In this document: in pieces, positions 5,419-59,074 of the stretch | Position numbering within the stretch: the stretch's first letter is position 1 | How the letters are laid out: each line of letters begins with the position of its first letter | Assembly (NCBI GenBank): GCA_021648685.1 | Contig: JAKISI010000008.1 | Span: 1-64,000 of the forward strand | Length of the DNA: 64,000 nt | Reading direction: 5' to 3' | DNA from: Candidatus Polarisedimenticolaceae bacterium | GTDB taxonomy: Bacteria; Pseudomonadota; Gammaproteobacteria; Chromatiales; Chromatiaceae | Translations under genes and position numbers: made by a program | The notes under the pieces: model-generated | What the model saw: only the letters and a program-made list of their open reading frames with translations | The model's database searches: none | What the model was told of the DNA's origin: nothing

Positions 5419-5871
5419 ATGACAAACGGTCAGACGGAGCAGGTGGTAGAACGTCGCACTGGCACACGGGATATGATTGACAAACTGCTGGCAGAGCGTA
5501 AGGAGATGCTGGCGCTCTACTGGCATGTTGCCGGGTTAGAGCCGCTGACAAAAGAGACCCCTGTCGGCGACCATCTGCAGGAGTTCTGCCAAGTGCTGGT
5601 TGACTATATCGCCTTTGGCCATTTCGAGGTCTATGATCGCATCGGCAGTGGCAAGGAGCGACGTGGAGCGGTCGTCTCCGTTGCGCAGGAGATCTATCCC
5701 CGCATTCTGGATACAACCGATGTAACGGTCTCCTTTAATGATAAATATGATGAGTCAGACCATGAACTGCACCTGGAAAACCTATCCAAGGATCTCTCTC
5801 AGATGGGCGAAGTGCTGGCAACCCGAATCGAACTGGAAGACCAGTTGATTGAGGTTATGCTGCAGCGTTGA
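5419..5871 (+). CDS. Rsd/AlgQ-family anti-sigma-70 regulator
   Basis: A 150-residue helical protein with the Rsd/AlgQ pattern: an N-terminal segment RDMIDKLLAERKEMLALYWHV and then LQEFCQVLVDYIAFGHFEVYD. In E. coli Rsd binds region 4 of sigma-70 and shifts RNA polymerase toward alternative sigma factors in stationary phase; AlgQ of Pseudomonas does the same and affects alginate. The start was placed at the ATG at 5419, preceded by AAAGGGTG, because the 46 codons upstream have no family similarity. The stop lies 20 bases before the cyclase-like gene, so the two are likely one transcript. The symbol is left blank because rsd and algQ cannot be separated here. Confidence 0.85.
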   Translation: MTNGQTEQVVERRTGTRDMIDKLLAERKEMLALYWHVAGLEPLTKETPVGDHLQEFCQVLVDYIAFGHFEVYDRIGSGKERRGAVVSVAQEIYPRILDTTDVTVSFNDKYDESDHELHLENLSKDLSQMGEVLATRIELEDQLIEVMLQR

Positions 5872-5891: not shown

Positions 5892-8309
5892 TTGGATACC
5901 CAGGTGTTTTCCAGGCTTAACAGATTCCGTCAGAGAGCACCCCAAAAAGATGAGTTTTTGGCGCTGCTATACCCCTGTGAGCCGTTGAAGATCCAGCTCC
6001 AGAGTTTGCACAGGGGCATCGATAATGCGCGTATTGATATAACCCTCTGTCCTATCTTCAGCATCAAAGCCACCCGGCTTGTGTGTGGCATTCTGCAACA
6101 TTGTGCGGTGCTCAATGATTTGAGCCGACAGGTGGCCAGGCCTAAAAAGGCGGATATGGATGCATTTCTCAAGGCCTATGCCGATATGATGGATGCAACG
6201 GTGGCCAGAGCACACAAAGCATCCTCTCCGGATCTGGTTCAACTGCTTCAGCTGTCGGTTATGCGGTTTTTACTGCGCTTGATCAATGAAGAGCTGGATC
6301 GCTTGCGGGATGGGATGCAGCGTAGCCGGGGCGGTGTTGTAGGGCGGTCAGACCGGCGTACGCTGGAGCTCCATGAGAGCATGGTTACGCTGGCAAAACA
6401 AAGAAACTGCCTGCGAAATACTGTGCTTCAGCAGCTTTTTGGGCGGATCATCAAGCTGGAGGCAAGGTCGCTGCGGGTGACCCGGAAATCTGTGCTGGGG
6501 ATATCCTGGCCGTTGCCAAGGCCGGTGCTGTGCAATCCTATGTTGCAACAGCCACTGCCTTGGGAGGATGGCCAGCGGATTGACCCCTATCTCCCCCTCT
6601 GCGTGGACTATTTTGACCAAACCAACCGACTGCTGAGCGAAATCTTTAGTGCCTATCTGCCCCAGTGGGCCTTGGCCTGTGATGGGAAAGAACGCCTCCC
6701 GTGCAGTAAGGATGAGCTAAAAAACAGAATACAGCGGCGCAAGCCCCAAAGCGGGGTGGATGGCGCCCTTGAGGCCGAGGCGCTGTTGCGCAGCTCACTG
6801 CAACCGGAGGAGTATCTCCAGGGGCAGTTTTGCTGGCTCGATATGCCGGATAATTTTGAACTGCTAACCTCCCAGGCGGTGTTGCAGAAGGCGCTGGGCG
6901 ACCAAAATAGAAAGCGACTGCCGACAGGCTGGCAGAATTTTCAGCGTGATGTGAAAAGGCGCATCTGCCGACAGCTCAAGCAGTTGGGGCTGGTGCCGCA
7001 GATCCTGGCGGCCTATGGTGCTTGCAGCGTGGTTCGGGGGCTGGAGCAGCATCTGCCGACCTCACTTGTACGGCAGTATCTCTCTGGAGAGCTGTTGCGA
7101 AAAGAGCTGCCGCGGCAGCTTGCCGGGCTTCAGATGGACCCACTGTCTGCCGCAGCCGTTACCAAAAAACTGGAGCTGGCGCGCAATAGAATCAAGCAGC
7201 TTTCATCTGAAGAACAAGAGCAGCTGCTGCTGAGCTATATAAAGGATTTCCTTGTTTTTCGGCGGGATCTTAAAAATACCTTCTTGGCATACCAGGCGAT
7301 GGATCAGATATCCATCTTGAGCAAGGCTGAAGATGTTGAGCTGTCCAGCGCCAACAACACGCTCTACCGCTTTATCTCGGCGTACGAAAATGAGCCGCTA
7401 AAACAGCAGATCTGCAAACATGTCATCATCAAGGCGGATGTACGCGGTTCGACCGCTATAATCTCTGGTTTGGTAGCGAAAGGGCTTAACCCTGCATCCT
7501 ACTTTAGTCTTAATCTCTTCAAACCCATCAGTGAGTTGCTGGAGAGCTATGGTGCAACCAAGGTGTTTGTGGAAGGGGATGCGATCATACTGAGCATCCT
7601 GGAAAATGAGGGTGCAACAAGGCCGAGTGTGGCCTGGGCCTGTGGGTTGGCGCAGAAGATACTGGAGGTGGTCGATGTCCAGAACACCAGGAACAAACAG
7701 TATGGCCTGCCAGTGCTGGAGCTGGGGTTGGGCATCGCTTTCAGTGCAGAGCCACCGACCTTTCTCTATGATGATGAGAAACAGATCATGATCTCATCGG
7801 CGATCAATCGTGCCGATCAACTATCCTCCTGCTCGGCGGTGCTGCGGCGGGGTTTTTCGCGGCAGCGGGGTGTTGAGGTGATGACTTCAGCCGATCCCGG
7901 CCTGTTTGAAAAGGAGCATCCTGATCGGCTGCTGCGCTTCAACGTCAATGGTATCGAACTGGATCAAGCGGCATTTGACAGGTTAAAGGCTGAATTGGCC
8001 CTGAAGTGCCTGACGCCGGATCCGGATGCCTCATTGGGATGTGATGCACTCACCCTGTATGTTGGCCGCTACTCGGATAATAGCGGGGTCAAGCACTGGC
8101 TGATTATCCGGAAGGCTTCAGTTCATTTTTGGGCCGATAGCCGCATAGGCCCGGAAGAGCGAAAAGGGCGCTGTTTTTATGAGGTGATCACCAGCCATGG
8201 GGTGCTGGCCTGGGTCAAGAGCAAGATGGATCGGAGGAGCCGCAGGCGGATTATGGATCCTGATGTTGTGCTGTCTGGATCGACGCTCCCCCTTTCAAAT
8301 TTTCACTGA
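5892..8309 (+). CDS. Large protein with C-terminal class III nucleotidyl-cyclase-like domain
   Basis: An 805-residue cytoplasmic protein without visible membrane segments. Residues 1-500 are mainly helical, rich in Gln, Leu and Arg, and match no family I recognise. Residues 510-660 look like a class III cyclase fold: KADVRGST with Asp516, FVEGDAIILS with Asp563 (47 residues later, close to the canonical spacing of the two metal aspartates), LELGLGIAF, and SSAINRADQL with the transition-state-type Asn639. The arginine usually found four residues after that Asn is Gln, so activity is uncertain. Residues 700-800 may be a further small domain. The start is a TTG at 5892, with a GTG at 5904 as alternative; no ATG is suitable. 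It follows rsd by 20 bases and overlaps the convergent slt gene by 59 bases. Confidence 0.75.
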   Translation: MDTQVFSRLNRFRQRAPQKDEFLALLYPCEPLKIQLQSLHRGIDNARIDITLCPIFSIKATRLVCGILQHCAVLNDLSRQVARPKKADMDAFLKAYADMMDATVARAHKASSPDLVQLLQLSVMRFLLRLINEELDRLRDGMQRSRGGVVGRSDRRTLELHESMVTLAKQRNCLRNTVLQQLFGRIIKLEARSLRVTRKSVLGISWPLPRPVLCNPMLQQPLPWEDGQRIDPYLPLCVDYFDQTNRLLSEIFSAYLPQWALACDGKERLPCSKDELKNRIQRRKPQSGVDGALEAEALLRSSLQPEEYLQGQFCWLDMPDNFELLTSQAVLQKALGDQNRKRLPTGWQNFQRDVKRRICRQLKQLGLVPQILAAYGACSVVRGLEQHLPTSLVRQYLSGELLRKELPRQLAGLQMDPLSAAAVTKKLELARNRIKQLSSEEQEQLLLSYIKDFLVFRRDLKNTFLAYQAMDQISILSKAEDVELSSANNTLYRFISAYENEPLKQQICKHVIIKADVRGSTAIISGLVAKGLNPASYFSLNLFKPISELLESYGATKVFVEGDAIILSILENEGATRPSVAWACGLAQKILEVVDVQNTRNKQYGLPVLELGLGIAFSAEPPTFLYDDEKQIMISSAINRADQLSSCSAVLRRGFSRQRGVEVMTSADPGLFEKEHPDRLLRFNVNGIELDQAAFDRLKAELALKCLTPDPDASLGCDALTLYVGRYSDNSGVKHWLIIRKASVHFWADSRIGPEERKGRCFYEVITSHGVLAWVKSKMDRRSRRRIMDPDVVLSGSTLPLSNFH

Positions 8310-10236
8310 CCCCCTTCACTACCGGCATTCGATAGGCCAGCCTTGTGAGGCTCTCCCCAAGCTGCTGTTCATAGATGATGGTATAGCTCAGCACCCGTCG
8401 CAGATAACTGCGCGTCTCTTTGAATGGCACAGTCTCAACCCACAGGTCGGCAGCCATATTGCGCTCCGGCAGCCACCCCTTTACGCGGTGTGGTCCGGCA
8501 TTATAGGCCGCAGTGGCGAGCACCGGATGCTGGTCGAGCCGATCAAATACCTGGCGCAGATAGGCGCTTCCCAGCTGGATGTTGAGCCCGGGGTTGAGCA
8601 GCAGTGCGCTGAGAGAGCGCAGTGAGCGCCCATGTAGCCGTTTGGCAACCTGGCGGGCGGTGCGCGGCATCAGCTGCATCAGCCCCAGCGCACCAGCACT
8701 GGAGCGGGCATCCTGGATAAAGGCGCTCTCCTGGCGTACCACGGCAAAGAGCCAGGCGGTATCGAGCCGGTTGGAGTCGGCCTCTTTTTCGATGTGAGTC
8801 TTGTATTTCAGCGGGAAGCGCAGGTCGAGATCATCCCAGTAGCCGGTGCGTGCCAGCGAGAAGATGGCCCGGTCGTGCCATCCCCAGCGCTCGGCCAGCT
8901 TTGCGGCGGCCTGTAGCTCATCATGCGGCATATTCTTTGTGGCCCACTCCCACTCCCGACGAGCCTCAGTCAGCCGCCCCAGGGTGTGCAGCTCCCTGGC
9001 TCTTGCAACGGCTGCTTGCGCCATGACCTGCTGTTGCAGTGATGCATCAACCTGAAGCGGGATGTTGGCAAGGTGGTAGTCGAGATCCAGCCGGTCGGCA
9101 GCCAGAAAGCCATAATAACTACGCTCACGGGCAACTGTGCGGAAGAGTGGTTTGGCTTCGGCGGATCTGCCCAACTCATCTAATGTGCGCGCCCGCCAGT
9201 AGAGCCACCCCTCAGAGCTGCGTTGTGGCTCAGGCAGGGCATTCAGCCATACCAGCGCCATAGACCAGTCGCGTGCATCCAGAGCGGCTCGTATGCGCCG
9301 TTCTCTAAGTGCGTCATCATCTGCAGCCGGTTCTATCTGTGCCAGAAAGGAGAGCCTCTCCGGGTGTCTGTCGCGAATCAGTGCAAAGGCCAGCCTGCGT
9401 TCAATATCCGGCCTCTGTTCAGCCGTGAAACTGTAGCGGTTCTGGAGCAATCTCCAGGCGTGGAGTGCGGCGGTGGCATCCTTGCGTGCAAGACGCTTGA
9501 CCCCATGCAGCAGAATGGCATTGCGGTAGGGGTGATCGCTGGCGAAGGCTTTGCTGCTAAGGATCACCTGAGGTTTGCGGTGAACCTTCAGCCAGCGATC
9601 GACCCACTTCTGCTCATCCACAGGCAAAAATTTTCGAAGATATTTGGCCAAGCTGGTTTGGTGCGCCTCTATCGCCAGCTGAATGCGCTGCCAGGTCAGG
9701 CTTTCGCTCTGCATGCCGGCATCCTGCCAGGCTTTGAATATGGGGTTGCAGGCCTTTGGCTGTGATTTTTTATAGCGCCACAGTGTGGCCACCTGATCCA
9801 GTGCCTCTTGCTTTTTACCGCTCTTGTAGAGCGCATGCAGGTAGTGGCACTGGCGCGTCACATTTCTGGAAGGGGTATAGAATGCCAGGTAGCTCTGCCA
9901 GCGGCCACGTTTGGCCAGATGATTCAGCCAGGCATTGCGCAGTCGCGTGGCTAATGGGGTATCGGCGTAGTGGGTTAAAAATTGCTGAATACGCTCTTTT
10001 TTCTGCTGATGCAGTTTGCGGCGCAGCTCCCGATACTCCAGATAGGGGTAGAGTGGATAGTGCTTGAGTGATGCCTTGAGCTTTCGGTAGTGGCTCAGCT
10101 TGCCCTGTTTCAATGCCTTTTCGGCGGCTATGAAATCAGCACGCTGGGTGGTGAGCGATGCTGTGCCATGCACAGGTGAGAGCGTCAATAGCAGCAATGC
10201 GATGATCCAGATGGGTTGCCGATAGTAGTGGATCAT
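8251..10236 (-). CDS. slt: Soluble lytic murein transglycosylase (Slt-type)
   Basis: A 661-residue periplasmic enzyme that cleaves peptidoglycan between MurNAc and GlcNAc, forming 1,6-anhydro ends. A signal peptide (PIWIIALLLLTLSPVHG) is followed by a long superhelical region of repeated helices, then a linker and the lysozyme-like catalytic domain. The catalytic Glu503 lies in VVRQESAF, followed by SSAGALGLMQLMPRTA and AAYNAGPHRV, the classical GLMQ and AYNAG motifs. The start at 10236 (MIHYYRQ) was chosen because it begins the signal peptide; 16 upstream in-frame codons are not signal-like. The 3' end overlaps the cyclase-like gene on the other strand. It is divergent from the thioesterase at 10304. 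Confidence 0.93.
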   Translation of the reverse strand: MIHYYRQPIWIIALLLLTLSPVHGTASLTTQRADFIAAEKALKQGKLSHYRKLKASLKHYPLYPYLEYRELRRKLHQQKKERIQQFLTHYADTPLATRLRNAWLNHLAKRGRWQSYLAFYTPSRNVTRQCHYLHALYKSGKKQEALDQVATLWRYKKSQPKACNPIFKAWQDAGMQSESLTWQRIQLAIEAHQTSLAKYLRKFLPVDEQKWVDRWLKVHRKPQVILSSKAFASDHPYRNAILLHGVKRLARKDATAALHAWRLLQNRYSFTAEQRPDIERRLAFALIRDRHPERLSFLAQIEPAADDDALRERRIRAALDARDWSMALVWLNALPEPQRSSEGWLYWRARTLDELGRSAEAKPLFRTVARERSYYGFLAADRLDLDYHLANIPLQVDASLQQQVMAQAAVARARELHTLGRLTEARREWEWATKNMPHDELQAAAKLAERWGWHDRAIFSLARTGYWDDLDLRFPLKYKTHIEKEADSNRLDTAWLFAVVRQESAFIQDARSSAGALGLMQLMPRTARQVAKRLHGRSLRSLSALLLNPGLNIQLGSAYLRQVFDRLDQHPVLATAAYNAGPHRVKGWLPERNMAADLWVETVPFKETRSYLRRVLSYTIIYEQQLGESLTRLAYRMPVVKGVSENLKGGASIQTAQHQDP

Positions 10237-10303
10237 TGCTGAGGCTTTTTTAAGGTTACACTTGGATCCTGCAAGCAAGAGCACTTGCAGGATCTGGGTT
10301 ATA

Positions 10304-58333: not shown

Positions 58334-59074
58334 TTATATGCAGCGTTTTTTGCCAGTGAGCGGACAGACCCCACCGGGGATGTTGATCTGTTTGTTTCCG
58401 GTATAGGGGTCTTCATGAGAGAGCTCCTGCAATGCTTCCGGATCAAGGACGGTTATCTTGTTCCCTTTTACGTTGATAATCTTTTTGTCGCTGAGGTTGT
58501 GGAGTATGCGTGAGAAGGTTTCCGGTTTTACCGAGAGGCGCGACGCCAGTATGCCTTTGGGCGCATCCAGGGAGAAGGTGTTCGCCTCCCGCATACTGCG
58601 GTAATCATAGAGTAATCCGGCAACGCGGTTGGTGGCATTCTGTAGTGTCAGGTCGTCAATCTCTTTGATCAGTGACCGAAGGCGTTGGCTCATATCGCCC
58701 ATCATTCGAAAGCAGCTCTCCACAGATTCTCGTAGCATCTGCGAAAACTGCTGGTTGTCAAACCCAAGCAGCTCTGTACGCTTGATGGCGGTGGCAGTAA
58801 CCGGGTAGCTGGGCTGTTCCTGAAACATCAGCGCCTCGGCAAAGGTGTTTCCCGGATGAACTATGCCGATGACCTTCTCATTGCCATCCATCGAGAGGCG
58901 GGAGAGCTTGATCTGACCGCTGAGCATCAGAAAGAAACGGTTGGCAGGTACTCCACACTCAAAGAGCACTTCGTCTTCATCAAGGGTGATCCTTCGGGAT
59001 AGGCTCTTCACCTGCACCAACTGCTTGTCCGTCAGTGTTGTAAAGAGGTAGGTATCTCGTAGTTCGACTGGCAT
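58334..59074 (-). CDS. Crp/Fnr-family regulator, DNR-like
   Basis: A 246-residue transcription factor with an N-terminal cyclic-nucleotide-like sensor domain and a C-terminal winged helix. The pattern PGNTFAEALMFQEQPSYPVT, the dimer helix and the recognition helix LSVKPETFSRILHNL with the ExxSR signature match DNR, the NO-responsive regulator of denitrification. The cysteines that hold the FNR iron-sulfur cluster are absent, which supports a heme-based NO sensor. Unusually, the C-terminus carries a tail ending GGVCPLTGKKRCI. Targets expected are TTGAT-N4-GTCAA boxes, found near nirS and nirC. Confidence 0.85.
   Translation of the reverse strand: MPVELRDTYLFTTLTDKQLVQVKSLSRRITLDEDEVLFECGVPANRFFLMLSGQIKLSRLSMDGNEKVIGIVHPGNTFAEALMFQEQPSYPVTATAIKRTELLGFDNQQFSQMLRESVESCFRMMGDMSQRLRSLIKEIDDLTLQNATNRVAGLLYDYRSMREANTFSLDAPKGILASRLSVKPETFSRILHNLSDKKIINVKGNKITVLDPEALQELSHEDPYTGNKQINIPGGVCPLTGKKRCI

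Follow-up and report, generated by a model that had tools for sequence, protein, structure and literature searches.

An undescribed 800-residue protein encoded beside rsd in many sulphur-cycle bacteria may make or sense a nucleotide signal

Class III adenylyl and guanylyl cyclases (PF00211; CyaC, Cya2, Rv1625c, RhoGC) have two metal-binding aspartates, a transition-state Asn and Arg, and a purine-specifying pair of residues in the base pocket (Lys or Glu, with Asp, Thr or Cys). In the Pycsar cyclases (PycC), the residues at pocket positions D1-2, D2-4 and D2-2 are F60/K104 in AnPycC and F100/R142/Q144 in EaPycC (PMC11224242). The DUF2652 proteins are uncharacterised bacterial relatives of class III with a relaxed pocket and relaxed transition-state residues, and Rv1900c, an active cyclase, has His at the transition-state Asn position (PMC4886424). 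Rsd of E. coli is described as silencing or sequestering sigma-70 in stationary phase, and it also binds HPr (PMC6904343).

The window, that is, the whole stretch of 64,000 nucleotides that was analysed, contains next to rsd a gene for an 805-residue protein in which an all-helical domain precedes a cyclase-like one. The gene, its domains and its neighbours are:

5419..5871, forward strand: rsd (Rsd/AlgQ), regulator of sigma 70 (PF04353, E 4.9e-44), upstream neighbour and probable operon partner
5892..8309, forward strand: gene for the helical-domain/class III cyclase-like protein, 805 codons, open, TTG start
5892..7325, forward strand: all-helical N-terminal domain in structure models, residues 1-478, with the signature G42-x-D-N-x-x-x-D49
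7344..8207, forward strand: class III nucleotidyl-cyclase fold according to fold prediction and profiles, residues 485-772, the most conserved part of the protein
8251..10284, reverse strand: convergent neighbour, soluble lytic transglycosylase-like, which we take to be slt from a reading of its sequence

With rsd ending at 5871, the gap to the open frame is 20 bp from the TTG, the distance given in a preliminary description of this DNA. It would be 32 bp from an alternative, plausible GTG start at 5904 (801 residues), which lies at the same Val-Phe where the first available start codon falls in two homologues of the same genus. The 3' ends of the gene and of slt share 59 bases (8251-8309). 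Compared with an 82%-identical homologue from the same genus, dN and dS were 0.073 and 0.593 in the cyclase part and 0.108 and 0.483 in the N-terminal part. So large an excess of dS over dN among close relatives shows purifying selection on the gene; this and the more than 500 full-length homologous loci exclude a chance open reading frame. In another genome of the genus (G005), two in-frame stops interrupt the cyclase part of the homologue (L003/L024), whose helical part is open, reflecting either a decaying copy or an assembly error.

Full-length homologues were detected in 18 of the 55 sampled relatives and in at least 521 reference-genome stretches. The carriers include Sedimenticola, Chromatiales, Ca. 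Thiodiazotropha, tubeworm endosymbionts, Achromatium, Parabeggiatoa and Nitrospirota. Homologues are about 740-830 residues long, and their full-length alignments show 31-81% identity. The gene is chromosomal and single-copy, and no match to the family was retrieved from 72,556 plasmid records, 50,697 phage records and viral contigs. On this absence and the constant chromosomal neighbours we reject a mobile or defence origin. Single-sequence and profile searches (Pfam, NCBIfam, PADLOC and PDB sequences) returned nothing usable, the window protein had no match in PADLOC, and none of the 59 members analysed in detail had a significant match to a cyclase model of Pfam or NCBIfam.

Folded alone, residues 1-478 gave a compact, all-helical model (pLDDT 88.3, pTM 0.88). 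Searches of the PDB and viral structure libraries yielded no match at E <= 0.001. The best VIA comparison reached Z 6.2, which for a helical protein may mark a mere common arrangement. A relative may have been missed by these searches. No transmembrane segment is indicated (maximum 19-residue hydropathy 1.6). The region had been described as unknown and of about 500 residues; it is indeed without known relatives, but its length is closer to 480. When a standalone version was sought in 274 genomes of the class, profile matches consisted only of the same full-length proteins, and the fusion of the helical and cyclase-like domains appears to be obligate in these genomes.

The preliminary description had also proposed a C-terminal class III cyclase-like domain at residues 510-660, to be checked by structure prediction and a profile search. 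The domain is borne out on both counts, with a larger aligned span (485-772). In a full-length AlphaFold2 model built from 59 homologues (pLDDT 84.8, pTM 0.74), the best solved structures retrieved by Foldseek for the C-terminal part were all class III cyclases (CyaC 1wc3, E 1.9e-6). VIA alignment of residues 485-773 with the guanylyl cyclase 6aoa covered 176 residues (Z 17.3, rmsd 2.9 A), and the core fold is common to the class III enzymes named above, with Z of about 16-17. An hhalign comparison of the C-terminal alignment with 26 ordinary cyclase domains gave Prob 96.2 and E 2.5e-9, against Prob 0.1 for the N-terminal alignment used as a negative control. In genome searches, the C-terminal profile reached genuine Guanylate_cyc proteins (E 1.5e-9 to 1.8e-5), whose identity Pfam confirms; among PDB sequences it retrieved Cya2 alone, at E 0.35. 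The profile check therefore holds for profile-profile homology but not for the curated Pfam cyclase model, which matched 0 of the 59 members. Conservation is higher in the cyclase part than in the N-terminal part, and dN is lower. Since the profile evidence agrees with the predicted fold, the domain is homologous to class III cyclases beyond mere likeness of shape, and both model and alignments indicate descent from them.

The residues that align with the active site and base pocket of ordinary cyclases are listed here, all on the forward strand, with counts from the 59 members and, for the pocket, from 24 ordinary cyclases of related genomes:

7431..7433: K514, base-pocket position D1-2, Lys in 59/59, Phe in 22/24 ordinary cyclases
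7437..7439: D516, first metal aspartate, 59/59, aligned with the metal Asp of ordinary cyclases
7566..7568: F559, purine-specifying position D2-4, Phe in 58/59, Lys in 21/24 ordinary cyclases
7572..7574: E561, position D2-2, Glu in 59/59, Ile, Met or Val in ordinary cyclases
7578..7580: D563, second metal aspartate, 59/59, aligned with the metal Asp of ordinary cyclases
7785..7787: I632, second purine-specifying position N-7, Ile in 57/59, Thr or Asp in 22/24 ordinary cyclases
7806..7808: N639, transition-state Asn, with Asn in 43/59, Gly in 12, His in 3 and Ser in 1 in the family alignment
7818..7820: Q643, transition-state Arg position, with Arg in 39/59, Gln in 19 and Glu in 1 in the family alignment

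The alignment agrees with the earlier assignment of D516, D563 and N639 to the two metal sites and the transition-state site. The other transition-state residue had been reported as Gln in place of the usual Arg; this is true of the window protein but is not a trait of the family, and by the alignment the change is lineage-specific. The pairs found at 639 and 643 are NR (23), NQ (19), GR (12), HR (3), NE (1) and SR (1), so that Asn and Arg are jointly lost in none of the 59 members. Loss of Asn alone would be tolerable in an active enzyme, since Rv1900c has His at this position. K557 is invariant (59/59). The phosphate-binding strand, which usually carries the motif VKG, reads NVNG here if strand order is used for the mapping, and the phosphate-binding Lys appears to be lost. 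The K-x-x-x-x-G-D and LELGLGI strand motifs are shared with class III cyclases, as is the Arg in most homologues.

All four tested positions of the base pocket differ from the 24 ordinary cyclases, where the equivalent of K514 is Phe or Leu, and each new state is near-invariant among the 59 members. The canonical purine-specifying pair is absent, being replaced by Phe559 and Ile632. Because the base-recognition positions are replaced family-wide, catalysis on ATP or GTP is not to be assumed, and the preferred base is probably other than the usual choice between the two. The family also differs from canonical cyclases in the added, invariant K514 and E561, in an extra segment before the last strand, in escaping the PF00211 profile and in its fusion to an undescribed helical domain of 480 residues.

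The non-purine pocket residues of a class III domain recall PycC. However, the residues here are K514, F559 and E561 instead of those of the pyrimidine cyclases, and therefore no substrate can be named. Neither the adjacent effector nor the mobile defence setting of Pycsar was found: no cyclic-nucleotide-binding effector gene was recognised beside the gene, whose neighbours are housekeeping genes (rsd and slt, or recA-alaS-ruvX-mltG-deoB). The DUF2652 proteins differ in being single-domain, of about 250 residues and from other lineages (PMC4886424), and at E <= 1 their Pfam profile matched 0 of the 59 members. As judged from sequence, the family belongs to the class III superfamily by descent and is set apart from canonical cyclases, Pycsar and DUF2652.

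We know of no such cyclase partner of E. coli-type rsd. A literature search, with most subscription journals outside its reach, found nothing on a cyclase beside rsd, and nothing on the cyclases of Sedimenticola or Endoriftia. The neighbour in the window is a true Rsd, and its partnership with the cyclase-like gene is a feature of Sedimenticola/Chromatiales lineages. Of 195 genomes from the order, 115 carry the family gene, or 114 without one weak partial match. Both genes are present in 94 of these genomes, the cyclase-like gene alone in 20, rsd alone in 6 and neither in 75, with one rsd call (G739) below the Pfam cut-off. Their co-presence is strongly correlated (Fisher p 1.6e-27, from genome counts that ignore shared ancestry). 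In 91 of the 94 genomes with both, rsd is the adjacent upstream gene and shares the strand, mostly at a distance of no more than a few hundred bases; two of the three exceptions have the genes on different contigs, possibly through assembly breaks, and the third is that weak rsd match. The preliminary description had named linkage in this genome alone as a refuting observation, and the 91 genomes rule it out. Two genomes of the taxonomic family carry rsd without the cyclase-like gene and are natural comparisons for its loss: in G010 (L141) rsd abuts slt in convergent orientation, and in G017 (L140) other genes follow rsd.

Among the 54 reference loci with enough flanking sequence, rsd was present in 43, and slt was convergent in 36 of these 43. 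In Nitrospirota, the order is recA-recX-alaS-ruvX-mltG, the family gene and deoB, without rsd, the neighbours being named from a reading of their protein sequences. Here (L077, L081 and others) the gene sits between mltG, for a murein transglycosylase, and deoB, so that Nitrospirota and the gammaproteobacteria, with slt, alike place it beside a lytic transglycosylase gene. In a tree of the 59 members, the rsd-free Nitrospirota, Parabeggiatoa-type and Pseudomonadales-type proteins group together, while two further rsd-free places (L027/L043 and L069) fall inside the rsd-linked part. Replacement of Asn639, almost always by Gly, falls in the rsd-free clade. In this clade (L075, L077, L079-L084, L088, L090, L096, L097 and L100), Asn is changed to Gly (Ser in L062) and Arg is kept; in the rsd-linked clade, Asn is nearly always kept and Arg is often lost.

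Taking models and alignments together, we give about an even chance to the protein being a divergent class III cyclase or sensor, fused to the helical domain, dependent on metal and nucleotide, altered in its base pocket, and co-expressed with and functionally tied to Rsd. It would be a cytosolic two-domain protein in which the helical domain of about 480 residues serves as a regulatory or sensing input. The cyclase domain would most likely dimerise, bind two metal ions through D516 and D563 together with a nucleoside triphosphate, and perform, or at least retain, metal-dependent nucleotide chemistry. The rebuilt pocket (K514, F559, E561, I632) would probably shift base preference away from the usual ATP or GTP. 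In the Sedimenticola/Chromatiales lineages the gene would be co-transcribed with rsd, and its nucleotide output or nucleotide-bound state could be matched to, or act on, the sigma-70 activity that Rsd controls. Several observations go against this explanation: the transition-state Arg is missing in 20 of 59 members and Asn in 16 of 59, the Lys of the phosphate-binding strand appears lost if the strand mapping is right, the Nitrospirota proteins have Gly for Asn and no rsd neighbour, slt is likewise a conserved neighbour, and six genomes have rsd without the gene.

The strongest rival to an enzyme is an inactive nucleotide sensor, a pseudo-cyclase that makes no cyclic nucleotide but, as a sensor, binds both nucleotide and metal and relays that state through the helical domain. 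The losses of Arg, in this genome as in others, and of Asn argue for it, as do the replaced base-recognition residues and the likely loss of the phosphate-binding Lys, if the strand mapping is correct. Yet the metal aspartates and the residues around them are invariant in all 59 members, beyond the usual need of sensing alone; Asn and Arg never disappear together, and established cyclases tolerate loss of Asn, as in Rv1900c (PMC4886424). On balance we regard a pure sensor as unlikely, though with a considerable chance. That the protein is instead an ordinary purine cyclase with cosmetic differences, producing cAMP or cGMP, is very unlikely. Fold and descent are those of class III, and receivers for a cyclic nucleotide exist, because the genome has 16 matches to cNMP_binding; against this, Phe and Ile at the purine positions and two charged pocket positions are near-invariant in the 59 members, unlike in the 24 ordinary cyclases, the cyclase models of Pfam and NCBIfam give no match, and the genome already encodes two recognisable Guanylate_cyc proteins. 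A CRP-type cNMP-binding domain is also encoded within the window (58727-58987, reverse strand).

The rsd neighbourhood could also be inherited synteny without functional meaning, with the protein serving an unrelated process; this is a minority possibility, but a serious one. Synteny may explain part of the linkage, because slt is convergent too in most rsd-linked loci and is nearly as constant a neighbour as rsd. The Nitrospirota members between mltG and deoB are consistent with it, as are the genomes in which either gene occurs alone. It accounts less well for the same-strand, upstream position of rsd in nearly all genomes with both genes and for their correlated presence, even with phylogeny ignored in that test. 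With the predicted cyclase fold and the recurrent rsd adjacency, the signalling link to sigma-factor control suggested in the preliminary description is a plausible hypothesis. In Nitrospirota and some other members rsd is not adjacent. A bolder extension of our preferred explanation, which we consider unlikely, is an undescribed class of nucleotide-signalling enzymes: cyclases of rebuilt base pocket, under the control of a new helical domain, would produce a non-canonical cyclic nucleotide (e.g. pyrimidine or modified) that Rsd ties to sigma-70 switching in growth arrest. If true, such a nucleotide would be in housekeeping rather than anti-phage use.

Rsd is the classic anti-factor of sigma-70, and to our knowledge little is established about its control in bacteria other than E. 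coli. In most of the sampled rsd-bearing genomes of this order, the gene beside rsd encodes an active site of cyclase type whose base pocket is unusual, and the pocket residues offer a direct and cheap handle on the substrate. Class III cyclases would gain a family, found in chemosynthetic symbionts and Nitrospirota, that current annotation models overlook entirely. Should the protein produce or detect a nucleotide, it would also link nucleotide signals with the silencing of a sigma factor.
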